Positions 9,555 through 48,257 of a stretch of 64,000 bases of DNA are shown one piece after another; positions within the stretch are counted from its first letter, which is position 1, and each line of letters starts with the position of its first letter. Below the pieces are notes generated by a model, which searched no databases, had not been told where the DNA came from, and saw only the letters and a list, made by a program, of their open reading frames with translations. The stretch spans positions 248,001 to 312,000 of the forward strand of contig JAVJRG010000012.1 of NCBI GenBank assembly GCA_040218535.1. Reading direction: 5' to 3'. The DNA comes from Lacipirellulaceae bacterium. GTDB lineage: Bacteria; Planctomycetota; Planctomycetia; Pirellulales; Lacipirellulaceae. The translations under genes were made by a program, and so were the position numbers.

Positions 9555-9639
9555 AATGACCAATGTCCAGGTCTAAATGACCAATTGGCTTTGGCGACTC
9601 CGGACGACATTGGTCATTTGGAATTGGACATTGGTCATT
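9555..9639. repeat. Inverted repeat between ubiA-like gene and mqnE
   Basis: A perfect 15-bp inverted repeat (AATGACCAATGTCCA at 9555-9569 and its complement at 9625-9639), with a second looser copy of the ATGACCAAT/ATTGGTCAT pair inside. The right arm contains the TGA stop codon (9635-9637) of the upstream prenyltransferase gene. Confidence 0.75.
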
Positions 9640-10618: not shown

Positions 10619-10628
10619 TGATCAGATA

Positions 10629-10743
10629 GTAGCCCTATCGCTCCGCGATAGGAAATGCGGAAGCTGGAAAGAATTACTTTCATTAAAAAAGTAAAGTACG
10701 TCCTTGAGGGTACTGCTTTCCTGTCGCGGAGCGACAGGGCTAC
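10629..10743. repeat. 115-bp REP-like element, copy 1 of the GTAGCCCT family
   Basis: Both ends are inverted copies starting 5'-GTAGCCCT. Each end is a hairpin with an eight-base-pair stem and a TCC/GGA loop: CCTATCGC/GCGATAGG on the left and CCTGTCGC/GCGACAGG on the right. A second copy of 116 bp is at 36572-36687. The right end contains the TAG stop of the ubiX-like gene (10740-10742). The 5' GTAG before a hairpin is the hallmark of RAYT-mobilised REP elements. Confidence 0.85.
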
Positions 10744-11426
10744 TCTTGGCCCCAGCGTTTGATCAGGCAGTTGTCGACGCCGAGTTGGTCGCATATTCTG
10801 GCTACGATGAAGTCCACTAAGTCGCGGAGCGTACTCACCCCGTGGTACCAACCGGGCGAAGCGGGAAGGATCACCGCACCTGCTTCGCTCGCTTTTCGCA
10901 TGTTCTCAATCGCTGGTCGTGAAAGCGGGGCCTCACGAGGAACGAGAATCAGTTTTCGTCCTTCCTTGAGATGCACTTCCGCGGCCCGTTGAATCAGATT
11001 GCCTGCCGCTCCATGTGCCACGGCACTGAGCGTCGTCCCTGAACATGGCGTGATGACCATTCCTTCGGTGACGAACGAACCGCTAGCGATTGGCGTCATG
11101 AAGTCTTGCCAGTGGTGGTAATGCAACTCGCCCACCGGTCGTGCTTCGACCGACAACACATTGCTATCAGCGGTTCCGATGCCCGCCGAGGCTTGCAACA
11201 GTTTGATCTTGCTATCCGAGGCATTCGTCACATCATGCAGCATCAGGTCCGCGGGTCGGAAATCCTTCAGATCGATCGTGAGATCCATCTCCTGCTTAAT
11301 GACAGCCGCGCCCGAAGGGCTAATCGAAAGATGTACGTCGTGCCCCGTGGCGAGCAGCACCTCGATGAGCCGCAGCGAGTAGACAGCGCCACTCGCGCCG
11401 GTGATTCCAATGCAGATGTTTTTCAT
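10740..11426 (-). CDS. ubiX: UbiX-like flavin prenyltransferase
   Basis: 228 residues. UbiX-type enzymes attach a dimethylallyl group to FMN, making the prenylated flavin needed by a UbiD-type decarboxylase. The N-terminal FMN-binding segment is ICIGITGASGAVYS. The conserved TPCSGTTLSAVAHG and LVPREAPLS motifs follow, as does the C-terminal PASPGWYHG. In the futalosine pathway the homologue (MqnM) serves the MqnL decarboxylase; that partner is not in this window. The protein is longer than the usual ~190-200 residues, with a loop around LLQASAGIGTADSNVLS. The start lies 2 bp from the arm of the four-helix-bundle cassette, and the stop TAG is part of a REP arm. Confidence 0.92.
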   Translation of the reverse strand: MKNICIGITGASGAVYSLRLIEVLLATGHDVHLSISPSGAAVIKQEMDLTIDLKDFRPADLMLHDVTNASDSKIKLLQASAGIGTADSNVLSVEARPVGELHYHHWQDFMTPIASGSFVTEGMVITPCSGTTLSAVAHGAAGNLIQRAAEVHLKEGRKLILVPREAPLSRPAIENMRKASEAGAVILPASPGWYHGVSTLRDLVDFIVARICDQLGVDNCLIKRWGQE

Positions 11427-11427
11427 A

Positions 11428-11908
11428 GTAGGCGGTAGGCAGTAAGCAGTAGGCAGTGCGGGTGCATCAGTCTTCTTCTGGTCATAGTCCTATGGTTCGA
11501 GCGACTTCTTCAATCCGTTCAGAAGTCTGCCAACTTCGCTAGCTGACGATAGCAGGGAATCTTGTTGCGAGCGTTCAATATATTTTAATCGACACGCGAT
11601 CATAATCTGAGTTTCGGCCTCACGCAAAGAGCCATGTGCAATTGAGAGGAAACGCCTGAAGTCCGCCTCAGAAAAACGACCTTGGCCCTCGGCAATGTTC
11701 GATGGAATCGAAACTGCGCATCTTCTCAACTGTGAACACAGTCCGAACTTCTCATCACTGGGAAAAGAGTTTGCTGTTTTATAGACCTCTTCAACAAAGT
11801 CCATCGACTTCTGCCAAACAACTAGGTCTTGATAATTCCGAGACACGAGAGACACCCATCATTTGTCCAACAACAACAACTGCTTACTGCCCACTGCCTA
11901 CTGCCTAC
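11428..11908. mobile_element. 481-bp cassette with 30-bp inverted ends carrying a four-helix-bundle gene
   Basis: The ends 11428-11457 and 11879-11908 are inverted repeats matching at 26 of 30 positions, made of GTAGGCAGT-type heptamers. Between them lies only the gene 11490-11855. The unit fits exactly between ubiE and ubiX: one end is 2 bp from the ubiX start and the other supplies the last three sense codons and the TAG stop of ubiE. Similar GCAGTGGGC-type repeats occur at 17796-17947. Mobility is an inference. Confidence 0.6.
11490..11855 (-). CDS. Four-helix-bundle protein (23S rRNA intervening-sequence family)
   Basis: 121 residues, matching the family of small four-helix-bundle proteins first seen encoded in 23S rRNA intervening sequences (TIGR02436 type). 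Family features present are YQDLVVWQKSMDFVEEVY at the start, FGLCSQLRRCAVSIPSNIAEGQGR in the middle, and the FLSIAHGSLREAETQI motif. The structure is known to form a homopentameric bundle; the function is unknown. Here it is not in an rRNA gene but between ubiE and ubiX on the same strand, enclosed by 30-bp inverted repeats. It is therefore probably an inserted accessory gene that reads through the menaquinone cluster. Confidence 0.93.
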   Translation of the reverse strand: MSLVSRNYQDLVVWQKSMDFVEEVYKTANSFPSDEKFGLCSQLRRCAVSIPSNIAEGQGRFSEADFRRFLSIAHGSLREAETQIMIACRLKYIERSQQDSLLSSASEVGRLLNGLKKSLEP

Positions 11909-12614
11909 TTTTCACGCCAACATAAAGCGTCGCCACGCCGAAGGTAAGTCCACGGTAAGTGACATCGCTCAACCCCACGGCACGCATTCGCTGAGCAAGT
12001 TGTTCTCCCTGGGGAAACTCCCCGACGCTCTCCGGCAAATAGTCATAAGCACTCGCCTCATTTCGTGCGAGCCATTGTCCCAGTTTAGGCAGCACGTTGC
12101 GGAAGTACCAACCGTAGACGGCTTTGAAGGGTTGCCAGCGCGGGGTGCTGAATTCGAGCACGGCCACCTTGCCGCCCGGCTTGCAGACGCGGGTCATCTC
12201 GGTGAGACCGGCATCGGTGTCCGCCACGTTTCTCAAACCGAAGGCGACGCTCACGATGTCGAACTCGCCGTCGGGAAAAGGGAGATTCTGCGTGTCGGCT
12301 TCCAGGAAAGTGAGCTCTCCGCTGGCGCCGGCTTTCTGTCCCTTTTGCTCGCCGAGGGCTAGCATCTCATGGCAGAAGTCGGTGCCGACGATCTCTGCCT
12401 TACCTTTCGATGCCTTGCGATACGCTAGGGCCAAGTCCCCCGTACCGGTACAGACGTCAAGAATCTTCATCCCCGATTCAGGAGCCACTCGCCGAACGGT
12501 CCGCCAGCGCCAGTAGTAGTCCGTACCCATCGAGAGCAGGTGATTCATCCGATCGTATCGACCAGCAATTTGGCCAAACATCTTGCGGACTTTAGGGCCT
12601 GACTTGTCGACCAT
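11898..12614 (-). CDS. ubiE: Demethylmenaquinone methyltransferase UbiE/MenG
   Basis: 238 residues from the ATG at 12614 (MVDKSGPKVRKMF), where the family homology begins; the frame is open 40 codons further but without homology. It methylates demethylmenaquinone with SAM, the last step of menaquinone synthesis. Motif I is ILDVCTGTGDLALAY at about residues 52-66, and the UbiE signatures IAGRYDRMNHLLS near the N-terminus and VAFGLRNVAD in the middle are present. The C-terminal residues Ser-Arg-Gln and the stop TAG are encoded by the inverted end of the adjacent cassette, so the original C-terminus may have been slightly different. It is the first gene of the cluster. Confidence 0.94.
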   Translation of the reverse strand: MVDKSGPKVRKMFGQIAGRYDRMNHLLSMGTDYYWRWRTVRRVAPESGMKILDVCTGTGDLALAYRKASKGKAEIVGTDFCHEMLALGEQKGQKAGASGELTFLEADTQNLPFPDGEFDIVSVAFGLRNVADTDAGLTEMTRVCKPGGKVAVLEFSTPRWQPFKAVYGWYFRNVLPKLGQWLARNEASAYDYLPESVGEFPQGEQLAQRMRAVGLSDVTYRGLTFGVATLYVGVKSRQ

Positions 12615-12790
12615 TGTGGGAGGGATGAAGGTAGAGGGATGAAGAATGATGTCTGCTTGCGGTTCACTTAACGAGCCAAGAAGCGTTAGCTCTCGGGTCT
12701 TCGCATTGCGAATTTTTGAATTATCGCAGTACAATCACGCGTTCGCTAGCGCCAACCGAAGCGGTCGCATAACGGTTAACGCTCTAGATC

Positions 12791-12845
12791 GGGCCTCCAG
12801 GCCTGAGCAGTACTCTAACCAGCTTCAACTCAGGCCTGGAGGCTC
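12791..12845. repeat. Inverted repeat before the ComB-like gene
   Basis: A perfect 15-bp inverted repeat (GCCTCCAGGCCTGAG at 12793-12807, complement at 12829-12843) in the divergent gap between ubiE and the ComB-like gene. The loop is 21 bases. It ends 11 bp before the TTG start, so it would lie in the 5' leader. Confidence 0.7.
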
Positions 12846-12856
12846 GAGCTACTATT

Positions 12857-13627
12857 TTGAAAACTCTCTCCATCCACTACTTGCCGCAATTTGTTGCTGA
12901 GGCCGACTTGGCTGGCTCAACGGTCGTTGTGGTCGATCTGCTCCGCGCTTCGACGACCATTTGCTACGCGCTGGCGAATGGCGCGACTGCCGTCCGGCCA
13001 TTCTTGGAGGTCGCTGGTGTCGCCCAGGCTGTCGCGGATTACGATAGGGACGAGGTAAAGCTCGGTGGTGAGCGTGGGGGCGAGATTCTCGAAGGGTTCG
13101 ACCTGGGGAACTCTCCCCATGAATACACCGCCGGCGAGGTCTTCGGCCAGACGATCCTCTTCACAACCACCAATGGAACGCGGGCACTGCTGCACGCACG
13201 CCTAGCTCAGCGAACCGTGATCGGTGCCGCCGTGAATCGGCAATCGGTCACTGAAGCAATCGCCGACGAAGGGGACATCCACATTCTCTGTGCTGGCACG
13301 GCAGGGGTTGTCACGCGGGAAGACATCCTCGCAGCCGGGGCGATCGCCGCTGAGCTTTTGGCTTCCGGAGCAAGAACGACCAACGAGTGGGCCGAAGCGG
13401 CTGTCCGCGAGTGGCAGGAGTTGGTCAACACAGCCCGCGTGCTGGGACGGAGCGTCAGCGAACAATTCGCCGAGGAACTAAAAACCACCCCCGGTGGTAA
13501 GAACCTGCTGGCCATCGGCCAAGACGAGGATTTGCCCCTCTGTGCACAGCTCGACGTGCTGGACGTCGTGCCGGAGTTGAACCAGCCCGATTCTGATGGT
13601 AGTGGGGGACTCATTGTCTTGCGGTAG
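12857..13627 (+). CDS. comB: ComB-like 2-phosphosulfolactate phosphatase family protein
   Basis: 256 residues starting at TTG 12857; no ATG or GTG is closer to the homology. The ComB family removes phosphate from 2-phosphosulfolactate in archaeal coenzyme M synthesis, but it is widespread in bacteria lacking coenzyme M, where the substrate is unclear. Family motifs are VVVVDLLRASTTI at about 24-36, GERGG followed by GFDLGNSP at about 69-86, TTTNGTRAL, and CAGTAG. No other coenzyme M or sulfolactate genes are near. The gene stands between the divergent ubiE and glyS. Confidence 0.85.
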   Translation: MKTLSIHYLPQFVAEADLAGSTVVVVDLLRASTTICYALANGATAVRPFLEVAGVAQAVADYDRDEVKLGGERGGEILEGFDLGNSPHEYTAGEVFGQTILFTTTNGTRALLHARLAQRTVIGAAVNRQSVTEAIADEGDIHILCAGTAGVVTREDILAAGAIAAELLASGARTTNEWAEAAVREWQELVNTARVLGRSVSEQFAEELKTTPGGKNLLAIGQDEDLPLCAQLDVLDVVPELNQPDSDGSGGLIVLR

Positions 13628-13680
13628 AGAATCTAAAGTTCGCTCGCTAAACTATGTGGCTCTACGAATACGAATCTCGA

Positions 13681-13752
13681 TCTCTCGCTAAGGCGCGAAG
13701 TCGCCAAGTGAGACAATCACACTCCTTAGCGTCTTCGCGCCTTTGCGGGAGA
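13681..13752. repeat. Inverted repeat before glyS
   Basis: Arms containing CTAAGGCGCGAAGTCGC and its imperfect complement GTCTTCGCGCCTTTGCGGG face each other across a short loop. It lies 20 bp before the glyS start and probably in its leader. Confidence 0.65.
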
Positions 13753-13771
13753 CCTATCGTTCAAGAGTCTT

Positions 13772-15382
<1,611 letters not shown>

Positions 15383-15388
15383 TATTTT

Positions 15389-15501
15389 GTGTCATTCCGA
15401 CAGGTGTCTCAGCACCGGAGGAATCTGGCTTGCACTCTGGTTGAGTCAACTTGGCTTCAAACCGGATTCCTCGGTCGCTGGAAGCTCGGTCGGAATGACA
15501 C
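15389..15501. repeat. 113-bp inverted repeat with GTGTCATTCCGAC ends
   Basis: Perfect 13-bp ends (15389-15401 and 15489-15501), with an inner pair AGGAATC/GATTCCT. It starts 7 bp after the glyS stop and ends 14 bp before the next convergent gene's stop. Repeats beginning GTCATTCCGA are common as dispersed palindromes in several bacterial phyla. Confidence 0.75.
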
Positions 15502-15514
15502 TGTGGTTAGCTTA

Positions 15515-16210
15515 CTAAGCCACACGGCGATAGTACGCACTGTCATACCCAGGACGTTGCTCCGTCGCGAACTGCAACGCGTCGAGTTGCCGATCAACAC
15601 CGGCGAGCTGCCGGTTCAGTTGCCGGCTGTTCCGCCAGAGCCGACTGGCCATCCAGGCGAGCCCAACAATCAGGCCTCCCTCACCAGTCAGTGTCATGGC
15701 CAGCGCCTGATTCCACAGCCCCGGCTGTGTTGCAATCGTGCTGTAGATCAAAGCCACCAAGCCAACTGCTAAGGTCAGACCGCTAACCGCCAACAACGTG
15801 CTGAGCCACCAACCCGTTGGCGTCCGGTGCTGGGCGTAGGTGGCCAGGGGTTGAGCTTGTTTCGGCGGCGTCGAACGTCGGATCTCAAGCGGCTGACGAA
15901 CGAGATCGAGCGCGGGGCTCAACTCCTCCGCGGCCACGGGAGACGTGGCCGACAGACGGCGACCAAGTTGCGCTAGTTCCGCCTGCACTTGCTTGCTATC
16001 GAAGACTTCGCGCAAAGGGACAATCTTCGGGGCGTCGAGTTCGGTGAGCTCGATTCCCGCATCCTCAAGTGAATCGCTCCCGCGCTTTTGACGCAGAGCG
16101 TCTGTCAGGACGAACTCGCAACGTGGACAGACTAAAGGGCCCGAGACCTGAGAAGCAATCGCGGGAACTTCTTGCTGGCAATGACGACACCACATACGCG
16201 AACAGCTCAT
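15515..16210 (-). CDS. Zinc-ribbon membrane protein of unknown function
   Basis: 231 residues from the ATG at 16210; upstream codons in frame belong to a repeat. The N-terminus has a zinc ribbon with two CXXC knuckles (WCRHCQQ and LVCPRCEF, about 17 residues apart). A charged linker follows, then two hydrophobic segments near residues 135-160 and 170-195 (LLAVSGLTLAVGLVALIYS and LTGEGGLIVGLAWMA). The C-terminal tail is coiled-coil-like (RQLNRQLAGVDRQLDALQ). The architecture, zinc ribbon plus two membrane helices, is common among uncharacterised planctomycete proteins. I see no enzymatic motif. It converges on glyS. Confidence 0.75.
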   Translation of the reverse strand: MSCSRMWCRHCQQEVPAIASQVSGPLVCPRCEFVLTDALRQKRGSDSLEDAGIELTELDAPKIVPLREVFDSKQVQAELAQLGRRLSATSPVAAEELSPALDLVRQPLEIRRSTPPKQAQPLATYAQHRTPTGWWLSTLLAVSGLTLAVGLVALIYSTIATQPGLWNQALAMTLTGEGGLIVGLAWMASRLWRNSRQLNRQLAGVDRQLDALQFATEQRPGYDSAYYRRVA

Positions 16211-16316
16211 GAGACGAAGAGAAAAGAACGCCAGAACGGTGCGTCCTCGTCTTGAGCGTATCGTCCACCAGCGGCGACAAACTTTAGCGATTCGGTGGAG
16301 TTTGCCGGGCAAGGTC

Positions 16317-16390
16317 GTAGGGTATCGCCGAGGAACGAGGCATACCGAACCCTCGCGCATGGTGTGCCTCGTACCTCGGCAATACCCTAC
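16317..16390. repeat. 74-bp REP-like element, copy 1 of the GTAGGGTAT family
   Basis: Ends of 30 bp match as inverted repeats at 27 positions; each begins 5'-GTAGGGTAT and contains GCCGAGG and CGAGGCA. The loop is 14 bases. It lies between the LysM gene and the zinc-ribbon gene. A second copy at 19347-19504 has a longer interior. Confidence 0.8.
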
Positions 16391-16403
16391 GATGAAAGCA
16401 AAA

Positions 16404-17693
16404 TCAGCGCTGAATCGTCACGCGAGAGCCGACCGAGAGAATGTCATACAGATCATTCACGTCAGGTTGCTTGAGCTTAATCGTCCGCGAGACGGGCTCA
16501 CCGGCGACTTGGCTCGTTCCGGTCGCGGCACGTAGCACGGCAACCTGGCCGCCAACGGCTGACGGGTTGGAGAGCACGATGCTGCGTGACTCGCCTGATT
16601 CCCCTGGGCTTGCCGAGTACAGGCCGCCAGTTGGGGTGATCGGCTTCTGATCAACGAGCCAATTGCCATCCTCAACGGTCAAGCTCGGATCGACTTCGAT
16701 CGCGAAGCGGCCCGCGTAGCGACGACCCAACATGAGGGTCAACTCGCGCGAGCTGATATCGATTTTCGCATTGAAAGGACCGGGAATCACTTTCAACTCT
16801 TGCCCGGTTTGCAAAGCGGCTGGCGAAGCCAAGCCGTTGATCTTCGCCAGCAACTGCCACGGCACGTCGTACTTGGCGGCGATCTGTTGGAGCGTCTCGC
16901 CAGCTTGCACGAGGTAAGGGGCTTCGAGGCGTGGCTCGCTGGAATAAATCACCGTCCCGGCAAGTTGCGACAGCAACTGGTTCACTTCGGCCGTTTCCTC
17001 GGGTGTGAGCGAAGGATCACCGTACCAGTCGGAGAGCAGCAAGAGGGCTTGCGACAACTCGCCACGATCCAAGGCGGCTTGGACGGCGGTACGTGTGGCA
17101 CCGAACAGCGAAGTCTGTGGCGTCGGCGTCGTGGAAGGGGCTGGCTCGGTCGAAACAACGTTATTGCTAGGAGCCGGTTCGACCAAAGGAACTTCAGGAT
17201 CGATACCGAGCGGCTTTTCTTCCTCTTGAATGATGATGCTTGGGGTCACCGTCATGACGGGTTCAGCCTGCTCTCCGCCAGTCATCGGCGAGTCAGCCAT
17301 TTCCGTGGCGTCGCTTTCGACGCTAGGGACGGCAGGCATTGCAGGCAGCTCATTGGAACCCACGCTTGCGGAGGCATCCGCGGGTGGCGTCCAAGCGGGA
17401 GGTGCTTCGCTAGCCGCACCGGGATTGAAAGCCGGCGGAGGACCAGCAGGCGTTGTCGCACTAAAGGCAGGCGGACCCGCACCATCATTCATAGCGAAAG
17501 ATCCCGCGGTCGACCCCGTCGCGAAAGCGTCGGCTCCCGGATCGTCGAGTTCCAGACCGGCTTCGATCTCAAAAGTCCCAACGCCCTCAGGAATAACCGG
17601 CTCAGTCTCGTTGATCTTGAGATACAAAAAGACGCCAACACAAACCAAGATGGTGATCGTCGCTAGGGGTCGAATAGAACTCACGGCTCGCAT
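16404..17693 (-). CDS. LysM-domain envelope protein with degenerate L,D-transpeptidase-like C-terminus
   Basis: 429 residues. A single N-terminal membrane segment (LATITILVCVGVFLYL) anchors it. About 170 residues of low-complexity, Ala/Pro/Thr/Glu-rich linker follow, then a helical part (ALDRGELSQALLLLSDWYG) and one LysM domain (YLVQAGETLQQIAAKYDVP to GQELKVIPG), which binds peptidoglycan-type glycans. The C-terminal 130 residues look like an L,D-transpeptidase (FNAKIDISSRELTLMLGRRY at the front, DVNDLYDILSVGSRVTIQ at the end). The catalytic S-x-G-C-x-R site is replaced by VSRTIKL with no Cys, so it is probably non-catalytic. Its role may be structural, at the cell wall. Confidence 0.8.
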   Translation of the reverse strand: MRAVSSIRPLATITILVCVGVFLYLKINETEPVIPEGVGTFEIEAGLELDDPGADAFATGSTAGSFAMNDGAGPPAFSATTPAGPPPAFNPGAASEAPPAWTPPADASASVGSNELPAMPAVPSVESDATEMADSPMTGGEQAEPVMTVTPSIIIQEEEKPLGIDPEVPLVEPAPSNNVVSTEPAPSTTPTPQTSLFGATRTAVQAALDRGELSQALLLLSDWYGDPSLTPEETAEVNQLLSQLAGTVIYSSEPRLEAPYLVQAGETLQQIAAKYDVPWQLLAKINGLASPAALQTGQELKVIPGPFNAKIDISSRELTLMLGRRYAGRFAIEVDPSLTVEDGNWLVDQKPITPTGGLYSASPGESGESRSIVLSNPSAVGGQVAVLRAATGTSQVAGEPVSRTIKLKQPDVNDLYDILSVGSRVTIQR

Positions 17694-17795
17694 CTCCTGA
17701 TGAGCATAATGTGTGACTCTTGGACCTGGGGCCCGGTTGCTATTGCGGCAGATCGTAGGAAAAGCGAGCGGGGGACGCTATGGCAGTTGTGCGGA

Positions 17796-17947
17796 AGTGG
17801 GAAGTGGGCAGTGGGCAGTGGGCAGTGGGCAGTGGGCAGTGGGCAGTTTGGATTCTGGTCGTCAGATTTGTTGCGCAAGGGGACAGCTTGAGAACTAGCA
17901 AATTTTCCGCAGAAGACCTTGGACTGCCCCCTGCCGACTGCCCACTT
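17796..17947. repeat. AGTGGGC heptamer array with inverted partner
   Basis: Seven tandem copies of a 7-mer (one AGTGGGA then six AGTGGGC) run from 17796 to about 17847. A diverged inverted partner (GGACTGCCCCCTGCCGACTG and onward) is at 17921-17947. Units of the same type form the ends of the cassette at 11428-11908. It fills the divergent gap between the LysM gene and the DUF1499-like gene. Confidence 0.75.
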
Positions 17948-17970
17948 GTTTCCTGCTAAACTAAACAACT

Positions 17971-18450
17971 ATGACCGACACTCCTAAAACTTCTTCGCTT
18001 CGCAAACGAATGGTTTACGTTCTACCGATCGCTGTGCTAGCGTTGCTAGCAACTGTCGCGGCCCAAATTGACGATTGGAGTCGTGATCTGACAACAAACT
18101 TCGCAGAGACTTCGGTCGCAGCAGAAGATCCACTGGATCGCCCACTTGCTGTCGTAGCAGAAGTCGAAGAGATCGAGCAAGCCATCCGCACATTCGTTGA
18201 AAATCAGCCTCGTTGGGAACTCAAGGGTTCGGATTCTTTGCCAAGTATTCGCTCGATTTTTCTGACGCGAAAAACCAAGTGGCTGAAGTTTACCGACGAT
18301 GTGCAAGTCGACATTCACTACTCGCAAGAGCCAATACTCGTTGAAATCAGCAGCCAATCACGCGTTGGTAAAGGGGATTTAGGGCAGAATCCGCGGAATA
18401 TTCGGGAGTTAAATCGAGCGTTGCGTGAGCAGCTTGATGTTGCGAAGTAA
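17971..18450 (+). CDS. DUF1499-like membrane-anchored protein
   Basis: 159 residues. The N-terminal membrane segment is MVYVLPIAVLALLATVAA, followed by an extracytoplasmic domain. The C-terminal half (WELKGSDSLPSIRS, FTDDVQVDIH, VEISSQSRVGKGDLGQNPRNIRELNRAL) matches the pattern of DUF1499 proteins, in which S-x-S-R-x-G-x-x-D-L-G-x-N is the signature. The function of that family is unknown. The ATG at 17971 is the only plausible start. The preceding gap holds the heptamer array. Confidence 0.8.
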   Translation: MTDTPKTSSLRKRMVYVLPIAVLALLATVAAQIDDWSRDLTTNFAETSVAAEDPLDRPLAVVAEVEEIEQAIRTFVENQPRWELKGSDSLPSIRSIFLTRKTKWLKFTDDVQVDIHYSQEPILVEISSQSRVGKGDLGQNPRNIRELNRALREQLDVAK

Positions 18451-18485
18451 TTTTTTGCTCGCGACGACAACTTGCGAGCACTTCT

Positions 18486-18512
18486 CCGGCAAGCTGTTAG
18501 CTTGCGGCTGCC
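18486..18512. repeat. Single TGTTA-loop hairpin
   Basis: A GCAAGC/GCTTGC stem with TGTTA loop (18489-18505), bounded by CCGG and GGCTGCC as in the thiS-thiG element. It is 35 bp after the DUF1499-like gene. The rest of the 18451-18801 gap shows AT-rich sequence and no gene I can support. Confidence 0.65.
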
Positions 18513-18801
18513 TAGTCTGGAAAAAACGTTCGTGCCAATCCGCGCGATCCGTGACCAAAAATTTTGCCGCTATTAGTTCTCGCGCAAACCCTATGCGAAC
18601 AAGCTTGTCAAGCAAAAATTTTTTGAGAGAAGTGTTTGTCAAGTTCACTTCCTGAAGAAACAGCCTTTGTCGTTGTTCGCCTTGCTAACTATAATGGAGA
18701 CATCAGGCGGCTTACCTGAGGCACCATCTGACGAACTCAACTTGTCTTGTGTTCGTCAGGAAACGATAAAACCAAGCCCGCTTGGTGAAAGAAGGTTCGC
18801 G

Positions 18802-19341
18802 ATGATTACCGTACGCCCCAAAGTGGCTGAGCTTAGCTACCAACTTCTTGGGCGGACGGTCCATCCTGAGCTTTTCCAGATTCATCAGTATCGTTCTGTG
18901 GAACGCAATGGCTATCAGGCGAAGGTCTGGATCACCAGCAGTGGCCACGTCGTCACCTGGCACTACGGCGACCTTGTCCTCACGGAGGTCGTTGGCTCAG
19001 CGGCTCAAGAAATGCCGGAACGTCGTCGCCTGAAGACCTACAAGATCGAAGGCGACCGCGTCGAAACTTTCCAGGCCACCGGCGGCATCACGCATGAGAC
19101 GCGTTTCTCGTTAGAGCCTTCCGATCCCGGTCGATTTGCCGCCTATCAGAAAGAGTTAACTCTTCAAGCGACCCGCGCCGGCATGCTTCAGCGATTTGAT
19201 GCGAGTGGACGCTTTGAAGACGGTGCCCTTAGCTACGTGAATGTCGATTCGCGAGACAAAGTCTTCCGCGTGCAGGCGTTTCACACGTTCCCTGCCGACT
19301 ACGCGATGCTCAAAGTGCAATCGTGGTATCGGTTGCCGTAA
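18802..19341 (+). CDS. DUF2617-like protein
   Basis: 179 residues from the ATG at 18802. This start is chosen because GAAAGAAGG lies six bases upstream and because the upstream codons look like leader sequence. The protein begins MITVRPKVAELSYQLLGRTVHPELF and contains YQAKVWITSSGHVVTWHYG, which resembles DUF2617 proteins of actinobacteria and planctomycetes; the function is unknown. The body is beta-rich with conserved polar residues (ETRFSLE, TFPADYAMLKVQSWY). No signal peptide or membrane segment is present, so it is probably cytoplasmic. Confidence 0.75.
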   Translation: MITVRPKVAELSYQLLGRTVHPELFQIHQYRSVERNGYQAKVWITSSGHVVTWHYGDLVLTEVVGSAAQEMPERRRLKTYKIEGDRVETFQATGGITHETRFSLEPSDPGRFAAYQKELTLQATRAGMLQRFDASGRFEDGALSYVNVDSRDKVFRVQAFHTFPADYAMLKVQSWYRLP

Positions 19342-19346
19342 TAGCT

Positions 19347-19504
19347 GTCGGGTATGCCGAGGAACGAGGCATACCTCATATGAAGTCAAAGTGTCGAAAG
19401 GTCGAAGAGTCGAAGGGGAGCAATTTGGGTTTCTCTTCGACCGTTTGACCCTTCGACTATTCGACCGATTTCTTGGTATGCCTCGTGCCTCGGCGATACC
19501 CTAC
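19347..19504. repeat. 158-bp REP-like element, copy 2 of the GTAGGGTAT family, with nested insert
   Basis: The outer arms (19347-19375 and 19475-19504) match the ends of the 74-bp copy at 16317-16390. The loop instead holds a second inverted repeat of a different family, with GTCGAAAGGTCGAAGAG near 19392 and CCCTTCGACTATTCGACC near 19450. The right arm contains the TAG stop of the alpha/beta hydrolase gene (19501-19503). Confidence 0.8.
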
Positions 19505-20325
19505 AAGCTCTTCAGAAACTGCTGCAGCGCTTCATTCACCGCTTCGGCATTCTCAAGCGTCGTCATGTGTCCGGCTTCGGGGATCTCCACGTATTCCGCG
19601 TTCGGTAACGCCTCAGCAATACCTCGCATTTCTTCGGGAGGGCTGATCGCGTCGTTCTCGCCACAGAGCACAAGTGCAGGGCAAGCTATGTCTTTGAGCT
19701 GATCGGTCACGTCCGGTCGCTCCGCCATGCCAAGCTGAGAAGCTGAGACCGCTAGTGGATTTTGGCGAAGGATCATCTCACGTACATCGTCACTGACCTT
19801 CGCTTCCTGTTTAGCAGCCGAGAGCAGCATCGAAAGCATTCCTGTGGCCTCTGAAGTGTCTTCAGCCGACTGCATCAGACGGGCCATCTTTTGACGTTTC
19901 TCGCGGGCTTCGTTGGAATCAGCGATCGCCCGTGTGTCGCAGGCAATGAGAGCCTTCAGACGCTCCGGGTAGTTCAGTGCGAATTGCCAGCCGACGTAGC
20001 CGCCCATTGAGAACCCCGCCAGGACGACCGGCTCGGTGACGCCTAGCTCGTCGAGCAAAGCAAGCACATCGTCAGTGTACTGACGCATCGACACGCCGGA
20101 AGTTGCATCACTGTCAGCGAGCGTCGACCGATTCTCTGGTGTCTGGCCATACCCTCGCAAGTTCGGAGCGATCACCTGATAGTCAGCCGCTAGCGCGTCG
20201 ATCTGCGGTCGCCACATCTCCAGATCAAGCGGAAAGCCGTGCAGTAGAACGACTGGTGTGCCATCGCCTTGGACTTCGTAAGTGAGCGTAATATTATTGA
20301 TTGTTGATCGCTGAATGTTAGTCAT
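19501..20325 (-). CDS. Alpha/beta hydrolase
   Basis: 274 residues from the ATG at 20325. The oxyanion region is VVLLHGFPLDLEMW, the nucleophile elbow is GFSMGG (Ser near residue 100), the acid lies in CGENDAISPP and the catalytic His in AGHMTTLEN near the C-terminus, so the triad is complete. Strand and helix order fit hydrolases of the 3-oxoadipate enol-lactonase/BioH-like group; the substrate is not evident. It begins 4 bp after the stop of the TPR-protein gene, so the two are likely translated from one mRNA. Its stop codon is the TAG of a repeat's GTAG terminus. Confidence 0.88.
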   Translation of the reverse strand: MTNIQRSTINNITLTYEVQGDGTPVVLLHGFPLDLEMWRPQIDALAADYQVIAPNLRGYGQTPENRSTLADSDATSGVSMRQYTDDVLALLDELGVTEPVVLAGFSMGGYVGWQFALNYPERLKALIACDTRAIADSNEAREKRQKMARLMQSAEDTSEATGMLSMLLSAAKQEAKVSDDVREMILRQNPLAVSASQLGMAERPDVTDQLKDIACPALVLCGENDAISPPEEMRGIAEALPNAEYVEIPEAGHMTTLENAEAVNEALQQFLKSL

Positions 20326-20329
20326 CTGG

Positions 20330-22318
20330 CTATCGTTGCTCCAAAGAAGGGCTGCGATTCTTGGTGCGCTGCTCGCGAATTCTTTCGGCTCTCTCCCTGG
20401 CCTCTTTCGACTTGGAATCCCTGGACTTTTCGGCCCTTTCGATCTTGTCTTCGCGAGGTATTGATGGTGAGGGAGCTGCAGGCTTCTTTCCACTCGCTTT
20501 CTCTTGCTCCAGCGCCTCTTCAAATTCTACCAACTGATTCTGCATCACCTGGACGTGGGGCATCTTCGCTACGGCTTCGCGTTGATACTTCACCGCTTTT
20601 TCGAATTCACCTGCTGAAAAGTAGCAGCGAGCCAGGGTATCAAGAAAACCGGCGTTCCCAGGGGAGTACTCCAATGACTTTTTGGAAAAGGCGATCGCCT
20701 TCTGGTAATCTCCCTCGGTATTCCCAATAAGCCATGCCCAGTGATTGTAAAGCCCGGGACTGTCGGGGTTGTCCCCGATCTGGGCAAGCAAACGTCGGCT
20801 CACCCTGCGGATGGTCGCCTTGGTGCGTTTGCGGAACTCTTCGTCCTCGCTCTTGGCGTGGTACATCGCGATCAGGATGTCGGGGTCGTCCTCGTAAGCG
20901 GTCACGGCCAGGGTCAACTGCTTGGCTTGGTTATCAGCATCTCCTAGCGCCCCGTAGTGACACGCTTGATACAAGTGTCGGCGGGCGTAATGGGCGGCGA
21001 GCGGTTCGTAGAAGTAGTAATCAGCTGCCAGTGCTTTCTTGAGCTTTGCTTTTGCGGGCGGATTCTTATCCAGCGCGTCACAACTGGCGGCAAGTAGCTC
21101 AGCCGCCTCGCGATCTTCTCCTCGGTCGTGGTGCCAATCGGCCAGATACCGCCGAGCCAACAAGGCGTTCTTGTCCACCACGGCAAATCCATCGACGACA
21201 TACCGCCACTCGCGCTCCGCCCAAGCAAGCTTGCCGAACGTCTGCAGCAGGTAGCTTCCCAGCCGAACGCGCTGCTCATCGTCGTCGGCAATCAGTTCGC
21301 TGGCACGCAGTGCGGTTTCCTCAGAGAGCTCTGGCTTACCTTGTTTGTCGTAAGCTGCTGCCAAGTAGTAGATGAGCTTTCGCTCTTTGCGAATATCTTC
21401 TTCGTAACGAGTTTCAATCTGCTTCAGAACTTGCCACCGCTCGTTCTTGATGATCCAGTCCAAGACGTGCACCAACCCCTGCGTCGTTTCTCCCCGTCGG
21501 CCATCGATCAAAATCCATTGGCTAAGTTGCACATGGCGAACGAGTGACGCCGTGGTTTCGTCGACAAGTTCCAAACGATTGCAGAGCTTGAGCTCGTGCG
21601 CCAACAAAGAAAACGCGAGCCGTTGCCACTCCGTATCCTGAGAAATCCCTTCGCGTTCTAGCCGGTACATCTCGGCTTGGATGGCATGCTCCCACAAAGC
21701 AACTGCGGCTTTGGGAGTTTTCGCTTCAATGAGACTCGCCCGAACCCACTCGACGGGGGCTCGCTGACTCGAACCGCACTCACGCTCAATCTTTGAAGCT
21801 ACCTGGAGGATCGCGTCGGCCTCAAGTCCGGCCAACTGCAGCGCTGCCTCGCGAGCCAAGCTTGGGGAGGAATCAAAGCGAGCAATCCTAGCCAGTGCCA
21901 CCGCCCCGCGACCTTCGGATAAGAGGGCCAAGCGGTCGATCCGTTCGCCTCGCTCCGTCTCAGGTAACTCACTATAACGCGTTAGCAACTGGCGAACTTC
22001 AGCCGGATCGTCCTCACGCAGCCAATCGATTCGTAACTGATGCAGGATGTAATTGACTCGGGAAGAGATTTCCAAGTCTTCGTGATCGTCATTCTCCTTC
22101 AACTGGTCGAAGGCATCGTGGCCGAATTGCAAAAGCTTCTGCTCGGCTGCTTCTCGCCGGTGATACTCGTCGTCACCTAATTGGGCGATAAGTGCTTCGA
22201 TTTCCTGCGCTTGCTCGGCAGGGCTCGTTTGGGCGTATCCGGTGGTGACGAGAACTTGACATGCAGCCGTGAGCAAGAGTGCAAGTAGAGGCAGCAAGGA
22301 TCGGACGGAAGGTGGCAT
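20330..22318 (-). CDS. Secreted TPR-repeat protein
   Basis: 662 residues. The signal peptide is SLLPLLALLLTAACQVLVTTGYAQ; a Cys is present but the lipobox is poor, so cleavage after YAQ is more likely. The N-terminal region (DDEYHRREAAEQKLLQFGHDAFDQL) resembles HEAT-type repeats often found in planctomycete secreted proteins. The central part is helical repeats, and the C-terminal 120 residues contain clear tetratricopeptide repeats (YQKAIAFSKKSLEYSPGNAG, ARCYFSAGEFEKAVKYQREA). A Lys/Glu/Arg-rich tail closes the protein. TPR domains mediate protein contacts; the partner is unknown. It is translationally close to the downstream hydrolase. Confidence 0.82.
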   Translation of the reverse strand: MPPSVRSLLPLLALLLTAACQVLVTTGYAQTSPAEQAQEIEALIAQLGDDEYHRREAAEQKLLQFGHDAFDQLKENDDHEDLEISSRVNYILHQLRIDWLREDDPAEVRQLLTRYSELPETERGERIDRLALLSEGRGAVALARIARFDSSPSLAREAALQLAGLEADAILQVASKIERECGSSQRAPVEWVRASLIEAKTPKAAVALWEHAIQAEMYRLEREGISQDTEWQRLAFSLLAHELKLCNRLELVDETTASLVRHVQLSQWILIDGRRGETTQGLVHVLDWIIKNERWQVLKQIETRYEEDIRKERKLIYYLAAAYDKQGKPELSEETALRASELIADDDEQRVRLGSYLLQTFGKLAWAEREWRYVVDGFAVVDKNALLARRYLADWHHDRGEDREAAELLAASCDALDKNPPAKAKLKKALAADYYFYEPLAAHYARRHLYQACHYGALGDADNQAKQLTLAVTAYEDDPDILIAMYHAKSEDEEFRKRTKATIRRVSRRLLAQIGDNPDSPGLYNHWAWLIGNTEGDYQKAIAFSKKSLEYSPGNAGFLDTLARCYFSAGEFEKAVKYQREAVAKMPHVQVMQNQLVEFEEALEQEKASGKKPAAPSPSIPREDKIERAEKSRDSKSKEARERAERIREQRTKNRSPSLEQR

Positions 22319-22350
22319 GGCTGTTGTTCAGTAATCGGATTCGATCGCAT

Positions 22351-22666
22351 CTACCCCGAAGGGGTTTCGCACCATAGCCCAGGGTTGGTCAATAGCGAGC
22401 CCCAGCGAGCTTCGACCTACCCTGGGTAAACGATCAAACGTCAAAGGCGACCGAGCAAAAAGGTCGGACTACCAGCGGAACATTGACGAGGTCGCAAAGA
22501 GCTGAGGTTAACCGTTTTCATTTCGACCTCGATCTCGTTTCTCGGTACGCATGCCCTTAAGCTCGGTCGATTCTTGTTGGAACCTTCTCACCCAGGGTGG
22601 CGACCACACTCGCTGGGGCTCGTGATGGTCTTACCCTGGGCTATGGGATGGAACCGCTTCGCGGTA
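22351..22666. repeat. 316-bp palindromic element, copy 1 (AGCCCAGGGT family)
   Basis: The ends are inverted: CTACCCCGAAGGGG at the left and its diverged complement at the right, each followed inward by CATAGCCCAGGGT. Inner complementary pairs (GCGACCGAGC with GCTCGGTCGA, GAGGTCG with CGACCTC) suggest one long nested fold. The second copy is at 25011-25327 (317 bp). It fills most of the gap between the TPR gene and the response-regulator gene; no ORF is supported inside. Confidence 0.85.
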
Positions 22667-22710
22667 TTGTTGGAAACTCTCGTCTAATTGATATTACGCG
22701 ATAATGAACA

Positions 22711-22752
22711 AGCTAATCGCTAACGGATAACGGCTAAACGCTAACAGCTACC
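22711..22752. repeat. GCTAACG-type short tandem region
   Basis: Degenerate repeats of a CTAACGG/CTAAACG motif run into the 3' end of the response-regulator gene and include its stop codon (22748-22750). It looks like one arm of another dispersed repeat; a partner arm was not found. Confidence 0.35.
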
Positions 22753-23185
22753 GCCCGCTTTCCATTTCTTCGATATAGCGTCGTAACCGCTCGAGTTCGT
22801 CGGTCACGCTACTCAGCTTCAGCATGTTTTGCACGCGTTTGAGCAACGAGATCTTATCGACCGGTTTGGAGAGGAAGTCGTCAGTTCCCGAGTTGACTCC
22901 TCGTTCCATGTCGCCTAACTCGTTCAGCGCCGTGACCATCAGCACCATAATGTCGCGAGTTTGAGCGTCTTCTTTGAGTCGTTCGCACACCTCAAAGCCG
23001 CTGAGCTTTGGCATCATTACGTCAAGCAGGATGAGATCAGGCTTGAACGCGGCCACTTTTTCGAGCGTATCCTCGCCATCAACGGCGACCTCCGTCTCGA
23101 CGTCGAGCTCGCCAAGATAGGCGAGCATCAGCTCGACGTTGGCTTCATTGTCGTCAGCGATAAGTATGCGATGTTTGTCTGCCAT
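22748..23185 (-). CDS. CheY-like response regulator with short coiled-coil tail
   Basis: 145 residues: one receiver domain and a short helical C-terminus (SSVTDELERLRRYIEEMESGR), with no DNA-binding output domain. Acidic pocket residues are D11 and D12, the phospho-acceptor is D55 in LILLDVMMPK, and the conserved Lys is K107 in SKPVDK. Single-domain regulators act by protein contact with an output partner or a kinase. No histidine kinase is nearby, so the cognate kinase is elsewhere. The start lies 11 bp from the inverted end of the GxxExxY cassette, which therefore forms its immediate upstream region. Confidence 0.92.
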   Translation of the reverse strand: MADKHRILIADDNEANVELMLAYLGELDVETEVAVDGEDTLEKVAAFKPDLILLDVMMPKLSGFEVCERLKEDAQTRDIMVLMVTALNELGDMERGVNSGTDDFLSKPVDKISLLKRVQNMLKLSSVTDELERLRRYIEEMESGR

Positions 23186-23195
23186 GGTTTGTTTT

Positions 23196-23687
23196 GAACC
23201 GCCAAGGACGCCAAGAGCGCTAAGGGGTTGATGGTTAGTGGTTAGGTTGTGTAAACGATGCGCTTGATGCCACCGTCTTTAAGTCTTGTTGTGTTGAAGT
23301 TGATAAGTAGACCGAGCTGTTTGCTTGTCGCTCTCAGGTAATTGATAACCTGTGCTTCGTGGATCGGGTGGAACGACTCAACAGCTTTTAGCTCTACGAT
23401 TAATTCGTTGCCAACAAGAAAGTCCAGTCGCGCTTCTCCGACGGGCTCGCCTTTGTATTGTAACGCTATCGGCGCTTCACGCTGAAAGGAAATTCCCCTT
23501 CTTCTAAACTCAATCGCTAAGGCTTGCTGATAAACACTTTCAAGAAATCCGGCACCGAGATGCTTATGAACTTCAATGGCAGCTCCAATCGTCTGACTAG
23601 CAAGGTCATCAACCGCTGGGTCAGGCTCTTCCATCCTCGATTCTTTCAGCAATCTGGCCTTGGCGCTCTTGGTGTCCTTGGCGGTTC
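23196..23687. mobile_element. 492-bp cassette with 30-bp inverted ends carrying a GxxExxY gene
   Basis: The ends 23196-23225 and 23658-23687 are inverted repeats matching at 28 of 30 positions (GAACCGCCAAGGAC type, with AAGAGCGC inside). The unit contains only the GxxExxY gene. One end is 10 bp from the response-regulator start, the other is 4 bp after the glyA stop. Architecture and size resemble the cassette at 11428-11908, although the end sequences are unrelated. Mobility is an inference. Confidence 0.6.
23242..23634 (-). CDS. GxxExxY family protein (PD-(D/E)XK nuclease-like)
   Basis: 130 residues from the ATG at 23634; a TTG at 23652 lies inside the inverted repeat. The family-naming motif is GAGFLESVYQQAL (G-x-x-E-x-x-Y). 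A nuclease-like core follows: a Glu in REAPIALQYKG, Asp in EARLDFLVGN, and E-x-K in IVELKAVE. The C-terminus (QVINYLRATSKQLGLLINFN) is typical. The fold suggests a PD-(D/E)XK phosphodiesterase, but the biological role is unknown. It is bounded by near-identical 30-bp inverted repeats and lies between glyA and the response-regulator gene on the same strand. Confidence 0.92.
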   Translation of the reverse strand: MEEPDPAVDDLASQTIGAAIEVHKHLGAGFLESVYQQALAIEFRRRGISFQREAPIALQYKGEPVGEARLDFLVGNELIVELKAVESFHPIHEAQVINYLRATSKQLGLLINFNTTRLKDGGIKRIVYTT

Positions 23688-23691
23688 CAAA

Positions 23692-24954
23692 CTAAACGGC
23701 TGCTGACTCAATTGCTGCCGCGGGCACTGGGAACTGGCTGCACAAATCGCTCACCTGTCCGCGGACTGTTTGCAACACGCCGTCGTCTTCGGGATTGGAC
23801 AAAGCTTGCAGGATCCAGCCGCCTACGGACTTCATCTCGGCTTCGCCCATCCCACGGGTGGTGAGCGCCGGCGTGCCAATGCGGATACCTGAGGGATCCA
23901 TCGGTTGTCGCTGGTCGTAGGGGATCATATTCATATTGACGGTAATGCCGCAGGCGTCGAGCGTCGTTTCGGCCTGCTTGCCGCCGATGCCCAGCGGCGT
24001 CACGTCGACCAACATCAAGTGGTTTTCGGTACCGCCACTGACCAAGTTTAAACCACCGGCGATCAGCGTTTCAGCAAGTGTCTTCGCGTTGTCGATCACT
24101 TGCTGGCCGTAGAGCTTAAACTCTGGCTTGAGCGCCTCGCCAAAGCAAACCGCCTTGCCAGCAATCACGTGCATCAACGGGCCGCCCTGCAATCCGGGGA
24201 AGACCCGGCTGTTGAGCTTCTTGGCGTATTCCTTTTTCGCCAGCACCAAACCACCGCGGGGACCGCGGAGCGTTTTATGCGTGGTGGTCGTCACGAAGTC
24301 TGCCACGGGCACCGGATTATCATGCAAGCCGGCAGCGACCAACCCCGCGTAGTGGGCCATATCGACCATCAGTTTCGCACCGACGTCTTCAGCAATCTCC
24401 GCAAACTTGGCGTGCGGAATCTCACGAGGATAGGCGCTCGCCCCTGCGACAATCAACTTCGGCTTGTGTTCTTTTGCTAGAGCCGCGACTTGATCGAAGT
24501 CGATGCGATGGTCGTCTTCTCGGACTCCGTAGTTAACAAAGTTGTAAAGCATCCCGGAGATGTTCAACTTCATCCCGTGTGTGAGATGCCCACCGTGAGC
24601 CAGATCGAGCCCTAGGACCGTATCCCCTGGTTCGAGTGCCGCCAGGTAGATCGCCATGTTGGCTTGCGAACCCGAGTGCGGCTGGACATTGGCGAAGTCT
24701 GCACCAAAGAGTTCTTTCGCTCGATCACGGGCCAGCGTTTCGACCACGTCCACATGCTCGCAGCCACCGTAGTAACGCCGCCCTGGATAGCCTTCGGCAT
24801 ATTTGTTCGTGAGGACGCCCCCAGCGGCCTGCATAACAGCAGGACTGGTGTAGTTCTCACTGGCGATCATCTCCAGCCCGTCCTGCTGTCGCTCGATTTC
24901 ATTGGCAACGGCCGACCAGACTTCTGGGTCACTGTCTTCTAGAAAGTTAGGCAT
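23692..24954 (-). CDS. glyA: Serine hydroxymethyltransferase
   Basis: 420 residues, normal length. It interconverts serine and glycine with tetrahydrofolate, supplying one-carbon units, in the cytoplasm with PLP. The PLP lysine is K227 in [14 protein letters not shown]. Other family motifs are ASENYTS (31-37), [15 protein letters not shown] (50-64), HSGSQANMA (93-101) and the D-x-A-H pair MVDMAHYAG. The ATG at 24954 fits the family N-terminus. The stop is 4 bp from the arm of the GxxExxY cassette. No glycine riboswitch was recognised upstream; that gap holds the 317-bp repeat. Confidence 0.97.
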
Positions 24955-25010: not shown

Positions 25011-25327
25011 CTACCCCGAAGGGGTTTCATCCCATAGCCCAGGGTAAGATCGTCCGAGCCTAAGCGAGGAGGATCGCCACCCTGGGTAATAGTTTACTCC
25101 CAAAGGAGCGACCGAGCGATCAGGCATGATTACCGGCGGCACGTGAACGAGGTCGCAACGAGCCGAGGCAAACCTTACACATTTCGACCTCGATGAAGCT
25201 TTACAGTACTCATGGCTTGCTGCTCGGTCGATGTTCGCTGATCTCCGCTAACCCAGGGTACGATCACACTCGCTGGGGCTCGTGATGATCGAACCCTGGG
25301 CTATGGGATGAAACCCCTTCGGGGTAG
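25011..25327. repeat. 317-bp palindromic element, copy 2 (AGCCCAGGGT family)
   Basis: The terminal inverted repeat is perfect over 35 bp (25011-25045 and 25293-25327), beginning CTACCCCGAAGGGG and ending AGCCCAGGGT. Each end then forms its own CCCAGGGT...ACCCTGGG palindrome, and inner pairs match those of the 316-bp copy at 22351. It fills the glyA upstream gap; no ORF is supported inside. Confidence 0.88.
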
Positions 25328-36571: not shown

Positions 36572-36687
36572 GTAGCCCTGTCGCTCCGCGACAGGAACCG
36601 CGAAAGCTGTGCAGTGCTTCTGATCCGGAAAAGGAATGTAGCGTGTCGAACGGTCCTGGCTTTGCTACCGCGGAGCGGTAGGGCTAC
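36572..36687. repeat. 116-bp REP-like element, copy 2 of the GTAGCCCT family
   Basis: Inverted ends start 5'-GTAGCCCT, as at 10629-10743. Stems are CCTGTCGC/GCGACAGG on the left and CTACCGC/GCGGTAG on the right, so stem positions vary between copies but stay paired. It lies 91 bp upstream of the DUF4914 start. Confidence 0.85.
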
Positions 36688-48178: not shown

Positions 48179-48257
48179 CACCACGAATTAGACGAATAAC
48201 ACGAATCTAACTTGTGTCTCGTCATCTTCATTCGTGCTATTCGTTGGATTCGTGGTG
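48179..48257. repeat. Inverted repeat with CACCACGAAT ends
   Basis: Arms 48179-48206 and 48230-48257 match as inverted repeats at 24 of 28 positions (CACCACGAATTAGACGAATA type). The right arm contains the TAG stop (48237-48239) and the last six codons of the isomerase gene. Confidence 0.75.

Follow-up and report, generated by a model that had tools for sequence, protein, structure and literature searches.

The window examined here, a stretch of 64,000 nucleotides (nt) from a Lacipirellulaceae bacterium (assembly GCA_040218535.1, contig JAVJRG010000012.1, positions 248,001 to 312,000), contains two small cassettes, each a single gene enclosed by inverted arms of short iterated words. Cassette 1 occupies positions 11427 to 11909 (483 bp from outer end to outer end); its left arm (11427 to 11457, plus strand) is an iterated heptamer of the AGTAGGC type with five cores by eye (best lag 7, z 8.3), and its right arm (11879 to 11909, minus strand) is the reverse complement of the left, with 87% complementarity over the 31 nt. 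Between the arms, on the minus strand, lies a gene for a protein of 121 amino acids (11490 to 11855) that belongs to the four-helix-bundle family of the 23S rRNA intervening sequence (IVS) type (TIGR02436 and PF05635; here 4HB). Cassette 2 occupies positions 23188 to 23695 (508 bp, or a few bases more if the arms are extended with gaps). Its left arm of 38 nt (23188 to 23225, plus strand) consists of AACC followed by three units of the CGCCAAG type (best lag 9, z 3.2), its right arm (23658 to 23695, minus strand) is the reverse complement at 89%, and the enclosed minus-strand gene (23242 to 23652, 136 amino acids from a TTG start) encodes a GxxExxY protein of the PD-(D/E)XK nuclease family (TIGR04256 and PF13366; here GXY). 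An initial annotation made from the sequence had described two repeat-bounded single-gene cassettes, and both are real and lie where it placed them, with small coordinate corrections; its lengths of 481 and 492 bp are replaced by those given above, and its estimate of about 30 bp for the arms suits cassette 1 but is too short for cassette 2.

The cassettes fit tightly into gaps between housekeeping genes, as that annotation had also observed. Cassette 1 lies between genes for a flavoprotein (PF02441) and a UbiE/COQ5 methyltransferase, with its left arm starting at the base that adjoins the flavoprotein start codon, and cassette 2 lies between genes for a response regulator and serine hydroxymethyltransferase (SHMT); the right arms contain the stop codons of neighboring frames (UbiE for cassette 1 and SHMT for cassette 2). 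Both cassette genes are on the minus strand and, in agreement with the orientation first reported, are codirectional with both of their neighbors. A scan of the window against Rfam returned no family at the gathering threshold, which places cassette 1 outside rRNA.

In profile searches the cassette 1 protein scored 134.7 bits against TIGR02436 (cutoff, 24) and 140.6 bits against PF05635 (cutoff, 33.8), and the cassette 2 protein scored 149.2 bits against TIGR04256 (cutoff, 35) and 145.3 bits against PF13366 (cutoff, 22), with no match to PF05635. The two cassettes therefore differ in their proteins as well as in their end sequences, as had been proposed, but the description of both as orphan families does not hold, since both are already named and the 4HB family is known from hairpin elements in 23S rRNA. 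Both families are also common and multicopy, being present in 57 (4HB) and 55 (GXY) of 119 genomes of the same phylum. The active-site residues of the cassette 2 protein (D77, E87, and K89) are invariant in an alignment of 16 rows, and across 74 GXY loci the active-site D, E, and K are conserved in fractions of 0.99, 0.92, and 0.92, respectively; for the 4HB protein, we know of no catalytic residues. Two solved relatives of the 4HB protein (2gsc, from Xanthomonas campestris, and 2rld) have five chains listed in each. A sequence search at an E value of 0.1 recovered no solved relative of the GXY protein, and its single-sequence AlphaFold model was poor (mean predicted local distance difference test score, 48.5) and unfit for a fold search.

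Inverted repeats and word periods around the two gene families

Both gene families are bracketed by inverted repeats far more often than other genes are. We counted a gene as bracketed if an inverted repeat (IR) with a score of at least 14 surrounded it; control genes were called by a simple longest-open reading frame (ORF) rule and measured from the ORF ends, whereas family genes were measured from the ends of their profile matches, a small difference in method. Family searches identified 4 TIGR02436 and 7 TIGR04256 genes in the window's genome (5.36 Mb, 13 contigs), and all 11 are bracketed, each by its own sequence, compared to 9 of 634 other genes (Fisher's exact test, P = 9e-19) in a control sample of 864 kb that consisted of the window and 40 further stretches, one of them deliberately placed on a 4HB gene. 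One of the nine is a Y1 transposase gene with palindromic ends of its own. When loci of the same phylum were included, 61 of 69 had an IR reaching this score, compared to 14 of 525 combinations in which left and right flanks were swapped among loci. The two cassettes of the window are thus two of 11 in their genome rather than the only such cases, and their bracketing exceeds what the density of repeats would produce. That small genes simply happen to fall between common repeats might be expected in a genome so rich in hairpins, with 141 IRs of score at least 15 in 864 kb, but both controls refute this explanation and bracketing recurs in other phyla and in viral contigs, so that we give chance next to no weight.

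The shared design of the cassettes of two unrelated families, as originally suggested, is strongly supported and extends far beyond this genome. In a set of 220 loci from many phyla (146 4HB and 74 GXY), in which loci recovered by genome searches were mostly the best match per genome and four multicopy genomes (G079, G011, G012, and G068) were picked for their many matches, 106 of the 146 4HB loci and 62 of the 74 GXY loci are bracketed, with median element lengths of 478 bp and 516 bp, respectively. The 4HB loci from genome contigs in this set, which are the best 80 of 577 related loci, are bracketed in 59 cases, compared to 5 of 100 neighbor genes. An independent set of 49 4HB loci from viral contigs, fetched and scored after the period rule described below had been formed, yielded 39 bracketed loci, or 32 of 39 once near-identical proteins were removed. 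Heptamer-armed 4HB elements are common in these viral, perhaps prophage, contigs; searches that started from one protein or from a small alignment found no GXY relatives in viral contigs, but the search patterns were narrow and do not show absence.

The words that make up the arms follow the identity of the enclosed protein. Word period was first read by eye and then scored by a script blind to family: 4HB arms consist of iterated heptamers, and GXY arms consist of three units of 8 to 10 nt, often behind an outer ACC. Among the 220 loci the best period was 7 nt in 76 and 8 to 10 nt in 27 of 103 4HB arm pairs, compared to 0 and 46 of 46 GXY arm pairs (Fisher's exact test, P = 1e-19); outside this tally are two weak 4HB rows and one with lag 6, together with 15 weak GXY rows and one with lag 11. 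The same contrast is seen in the same-phylum and genome-contig sets only (64 and 15 for 4HB versus 0 and 36 for GXY) and in genome-contig loci after removal of those named as planctomycetes (41 and 10 versus 0 and 13). A classifier based on 5-mers of the arms, trained on same-phylum loci, predicted the protein family of genome-contig loci with an area under the curve of 0.96 (0.95 in the reverse direction), which changed by no more than 0.004 without nine planctomycete-named loci. In the viral contigs the best period was 7 in 36 of the 39 bracketed 4HB loci (29 of 32 after removal of near-identical proteins). The number of units per arm also differs: under three definitions of the core, 4HB arms have medians of 4 to 5 and GXY arms a median of 3, and the loosest definition gave 7 versus 4.

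These observations bear on two explanations offered in the initial annotation, namely, a common mechanism that acts in trans on repeat-bounded cargo or proteins that act on their own repeats; the former fits poorly and the latter fits better, albeit with exceptions that we take up below. If one enzyme, for example a Y1 transposase such as the REP-associated tyrosine transposases (RAYTs; REP, repetitive extragenic palindrome), moved any IR-bounded cargo with both genes as passengers, this would accommodate the 50 hairpins found in 844 kb of the window's genome that have periodic arms but no gene, the Y1 transposase gene with palindromic ends in the window, and the few host genes that also lie between such repeats (an ABC permease in locus L190 and a CxxCxxCC protein in locus L212). 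It would not account for a word period and unit number that depend on the enclosed protein; moreover, other bracketed genes are as rare as the control sample indicates, the L190 and L212 genes seem, on visual inspection, to have an independent solitary repeat on each side, the ends of the Y1 gene noticed as a candidate in the window (31362 to 31820) are a different palindrome, and one repeat type is most copied where its cognate GXY gene is present (see below). We therefore consider a common enzyme unlikely. We instead favor, at a probability of roughly 70%, the reading that each cassette is a small self-contained mobile element made up of one gene and inverted arms of iterated words that its own protein recognizes, with the two cassettes representing parallel kinds.

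A further alternative is that the arms matter only in RNA, where the transcribed stem would be excised by RNase III as in the 23S rRNA IVS, making the insertion tolerable, and the proteins would not recognize the repeats at all. In Coxiella, RNase III cleaves an element of the same architecture in vitro, and the authors of that study favor a role for the RNA (passages of PMC4990558), and the position of the window cassettes between codirectional genes would suit such a role. Selection on the stems at the RNA level should have left an excess of G.U pairs on the sense strand among arm mismatches, and we looked for this and found none (G-T versus A-C mismatches, 104 versus 100 for 4HB and 55 versus 77 for GXY). 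A stem by itself also requires neither iterated words nor a period specific to the protein family, and the gene-dependent copy number of the repeats would go unexplained; we regard an RNA-only role as improbable, on a par with the common enzyme. For self-contained mobile elements, the family-specific word length suggests that the encoded protein reads the words, and the missing G.U excess suggests that pairing may matter as DNA rather than as RNA.

Exchange of elements and gene-less hairpins in related genomes

Gene and arms are inherited as one unit, and at one site their exchange conflicts with the phylogeny of the host genes. We followed a single intergenic site (site 1) in 61 Flavobacterium genomes and read it in 50 of them. 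A 4HB element built of 8-nt words occupies this site in 19 loci, a different 4HB gene with GTTTAAA words (PF05635, 103.6 bits) in locus L312, and a similar but broken gene in L251, and one further locus retains a decayed gene. Gene-less hairpins with a best period of 7 are present in six loci (z 2.4 to 3.5) and in L308, a gene-less hairpin lacks a clear period in L248, and another in L310 is built of the 8-nt CAAAG words that the full element carries. Three loci have apparent single arms, six have only 31 to 76 bp in which no inverted repeat was detected, and eight are mixed or unclear, including one that is masked (L315). In two other species the site holds REP-like palindromes (TCCTCACCCCAACCCTCTCC...) instead of a 4HB element.

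The two arms of the 19 elements, taken together, carry words of either the CA[AG]AG type (10 elements) or the CT[AG]AG type (9 elements), with at most one word of the opposite type. Mapped on a tree of the 4HB proteins (17 rows, two with a longest frame below 90 amino acids having been omitted), this label changes once, and 0 of 500 shuffles were as low; a tree of the host genes in the flanks requires five changes. Well-supported branches force at least four changes in the flank tree of 19 rows (99 and 91 of 500 shuffles as low) and at least three when the same 17 rows are used (198 and 191 of 500 shuffles as low). Because the label changes once on the protein tree and five times on the flank tree, exchange at this site has involved gene and arms jointly, against host history.

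A second site, the surroundings of the Flavobacterium GXY element L323, was compared in 12 Flavobacterium genomes and likewise exists in full, gene-less, and empty states. The GXY element is present in 4 of the 12, a 25-bp gap takes its place in one (L357), and AT-rich hairpins of another type are found in four, of which two have a period of 8 (L358 and L359) and two have no clear period (L362 and L363). Another two (L360 and L361) have a hairpin whose left arm is that of L326, another GXY element of the query genome, and the remaining locus (L364) has a compound arrangement. One element is also found at different sites in different species: genome G172 has an L323-type GXY element at a different site, where the gene is 82.5% identical over 400 bp and the arms align but the flanks are unrelated. 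Two copies within genome G011 (L020 and L270) are 88% identical over 452 bp spanning the gene and one arm. Empty sites were found at both site 1 and site 2, with spacers too diverged to define a target-site duplication.

The frequency of gene-less hairpins is associated with the presence of the cognate gene. The arm pattern of L323 was counted in 61 Flavobacterium genomes, and its median frequency was 1.88 per Mb in genomes with a GXY protein of at least 75% identity (n = 10), compared to 0.24 per Mb in those with more distant relatives of the subfamily (n = 16) and 0.27 per Mb in those without a subfamily member (n = 35); the difference between the first and last groups has a P value of 3e-5, or 8e-5 without the query genome. 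This repeat type is thus most frequent in genomes with the cognate gene. In the same phylum, where counts cover one to four stretches of up to 20 kb per genome (39 for the window's own genome), heptamer hairpins numbered 0 in 461 kb from 14 genomes without a 4HB match, compared to a mean of 1.08 per 100 kb in 13 genomes with at least four 4HB genes (P = 0.015), and hairpins of 8- to 10-mers numbered 0.88 per 100 kb with GXY and 0.10 without (13 genomes each, P = 0.026); for hairpins of other kinds, no difference was found between the groups of same-phylum genomes (P = 0.25). The samples behind these comparisons are small, correlational, and uncorrected for kinship, with one repeat type counted in Flavobacterium. 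Within the window's own genome, the gene-less hairpins matched resident arms with a mean score of 11.47, compared to a mean of 8.86 and a maximum of 10.61 for 11 random foreign elements (60 draws, base composition not controlled).

If the proteins were instead regulators or nucleoid proteins and the word arrays their operators, the inverted layout of the arrays and the gene-less hairpins would reflect regulation, and exchange between species would be ordinary recombination. Concerted changes of word and protein would fit such a role, as would the better match of gene-less hairpins to resident than to foreign arms, but the symmetric bracketing of the gene, the occurrence of an element at unrelated sites, the empty and gene-less states, and the many word families per genome are better explained by a mobile element. 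We accordingly view regulation as quite improbable, even more so than a common enzyme or an RNA-only role, and retain the self-contained mobile element as the preferred reading.

Two further observations concern individual subfamilies. The GXY subfamily of L323 has composite arms (seen in five loci, L379 to L383), in which two pairs of the CGGAT type enclose a short palindrome (TCGCTATCGCGA and its variants). Three 4HB elements from two Betaproteobacteria and a bacterium named Chitinophaga (L083, L105, and L123) share AGGAT-type heptamers and have 65 to 68% protein identity; the resemblance of these sequences suggests that whole 4HB elements have been transferred between phyla.

Proposed mechanism and contrary evidence

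Under the preferred reading, each protein would bind its own words, most likely in a DNA hairpin, in a cruciform, or in single-stranded DNA during replication. The GXY protein could then use its PD-(D/E)XK active site to cleave the arms in their hairpin or cruciform form. The 4HB protein may bind about five words as an oligomer with one subunit per word, a stoichiometry suggested by the four to five words per arm and the five chains in the solved relatives, and by analogy with Avd and its reverse transcriptase it might recruit an enzyme encoded elsewhere. Gene-less hairpins would be remnants open to copying in trans, a behavior proposed for RAYTs and the REP-derived hairpins known as REPINs. 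A broader and more tentative proposal, to which we assign somewhat less than even odds, is that there are two unrelated kinds of minimal element in which word length at the DNA ends is set by the encoded protein, with a pentameric 4HB protein reading about five 7-nt words and a GXY nuclease about three words of 8 to 10 nt; tandem heptamers, the commonest unexplained intergenic tandem repeat of prokaryotes, would then largely be footprints of 4HB elements, and rRNA IVSs would be one special niche of them.

Several findings weigh against this interpretation. No IR of score at least 14 surrounds 40 of the 146 4HB loci or 12 of the 74 GXY loci; among the former are all 13 4HB copies read from genome G079, which lack arms. 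Period alone does not separate the families, as 27 of 103 4HB arm pairs have words of 8 or 9 nt (8-nt words are found in Flavobacterium, for example), and 15 of 62 GXY arm pairs have a period too weak to call. A Mantel test over the full set of loci showed no significant correlation between the similarity of the arms and that of the proteins for 4HB (rho, 0.03; at least as high in 126 of 500 permutations) and a weak one for GXY (rho, 0.13; at least as high in 9 of 500), and mean arm similarity climbs only beyond about 55% protein identity; in view of these values, we do not claim protein-wide coevolution of arm and protein. The branch of the 4HB protein tree that divides the two word types at site 1 has modest support (74/47), and neighboring sequences such as the arms and the gene would be linked irrespective of their function. 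Flavobacterium genomes with GXY relatives of 56 to 72% identity show no difference in the L323 pattern from those without, one genome with a decayed GXY gene retains 22 copies of it, and 9 of the 13 same-phylum genomes with at least four 4HB genes had no heptamer hairpin in the 18 to 40 kb looked at. We saw no target-site duplication, excised form, or enzymatic activity. In the literature, the authors of the Coxiella study considered expression of the S23 protein improbable and gave more importance to the IVS RNA (passages of PMC4990558), and 4HB genes were reported from cas loci, where they were connected with CRISPR function (passages of PMC3936711); insertion of elements such as those described here could also explain the presence of 4HB genes in cas loci.

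The armless 4HB copies of G079 have homologous blocks of up to 740 bp that extend beyond the gene, and they are probably another kind of element.

Relation to known systems and other features of the window

Cassette 1 is an IVS-like element outside rRNA. The 23S rRNA IVSs with an S23/IVP frame in Coxiella, Haemophilus, and Leptospira encode the same protein family (PF05635) and have complementary, stem-forming ends, as cassette 1 does. The Coxiella IVS has 428 nt, carries a 4HB gene, and has complementary ends that form a 28-bp stem, and it contains tandem GACAGAT heptamers upstream of the S23 frame, with an RNase III site at the first that is cut in vitro (passages of PMC4990558). Unlike the IVSs, cassette 1 does not reside in a 23S rRNA gene, and the heptamer rule described here extends across phyla; for GXY cassettes, the literature examined offers no counterpart in rRNA. 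Because 4HB cassettes share their architecture with rRNA IVSs, the system as a whole is not categorically new.

In RAYT/REPIN systems, REPs lie on either side of the RAYT gene. Hairpins without a gene that are scattered through a genome and tied to a cognate gene are a feature of these systems that we also encountered here, in the correlational and small samples noted above; the REPIN hairpins are associated with specific small genes and are proposed to be mobile (PMC3116915). RAYTs carry a Y1 (HUH) domain, whereas neither cassette protein matches PF01797, and the arms of the cassettes are iterated words of 7 to 10 nt, in contrast to the REP palindrome.

Intergenic tandem heptamers are also known from cyanobacteria, where they are called short tandemly repeated repetitive sequences (STRRs). 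In Xanthomonas, intergenic GGGAATC heptamers often occur as close inverted pairs, with 70 cases in Xcc (passages of PMC4692102), and for the TAACTGA heptamers of Beggiatoaceae an unknown binding protein was raised as a possible mobile element (passages of PMC4679880). The passages of these reports that describe the repeats tie them to no protein family, and our comparison with them is by description only. The Avd protein of diversity-generating retroelements is homologous to the cassette 1 protein, which scores below both curated Avd cutoffs (37.7 bits against bAvd, PF22296, with a cutoff of 40, and 36.5 bits against NF033474, with a cutoff of 80); Avd is needed for retrohoming based on reverse transcriptase (passages of PMC10053308). 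As a weak test of such an association, a YxDD motif resembling that of reverse transcriptases was present in only 5 of the 49 viral 4HB loci. A full-text search of a library with few subscription papers found no report of a general link between these repeats and genes of the 4HB or GxxExxY family, although older work on IVSs and cyanobacterial repeats, outside the scope of that search, may come close.

Tying each repeat type to one small protein of about 120 to 135 residues makes the question of its origin directly and cheaply testable, for two abundant protein families of obscure function, and suggests a possible origin for common intergenic repeats. If the proteins do read iterated words, they would be candidates for compact, modular nucleic acid binders.

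Gene-less hairpins, to which no strand is assigned, are also scattered through the window. Those built of heptamers lie at 9555 to 9639 (ATTGGTC type), 17802 to 17947 (AGTGGGC; the nearest resident arms are those of cassette 1, listed as L009), and 59829 to 59973 (AGTTTTC/AGTGTTC), and those built of nonamers lie at 48179 to 48257 (CACGAAT type), 53900 to 54130 (best resident match to the arms of L013, a GXY element of the same genome), and 58434 to 58508 (CACGGAT; best resident match to the arms of L019, likewise a GXY element of this genome). A hairpin at 13681 to 13752 (CGCTAAGG/CGCGAAG) has a best lag of 8, and the arms nearest to it in the genome are those of the GXY element L014.

Three further repeat arrangements in the window are distinct from these. 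The Y1/IS200-type transposase gene (PF01797) lies between inverted palindromic repeats (AGCCCCAACGGGGCGACC) that extend from 31344 to 31853, forming a RAYT-like unit separate from the cassettes. A long, imperfect pair of inverted repeats with the common sequence TACCCCGAAGGGGTTTC... is present twice, at 22352 to 22666 and 25011 to 25327, one copy on each side of cassette 2; these copies are REP-like. Members of a further palindromic repeat family (GTAGCCCT...CGCTCCGCG...) are found at 10628 to 10744 and 36572 to 36687.

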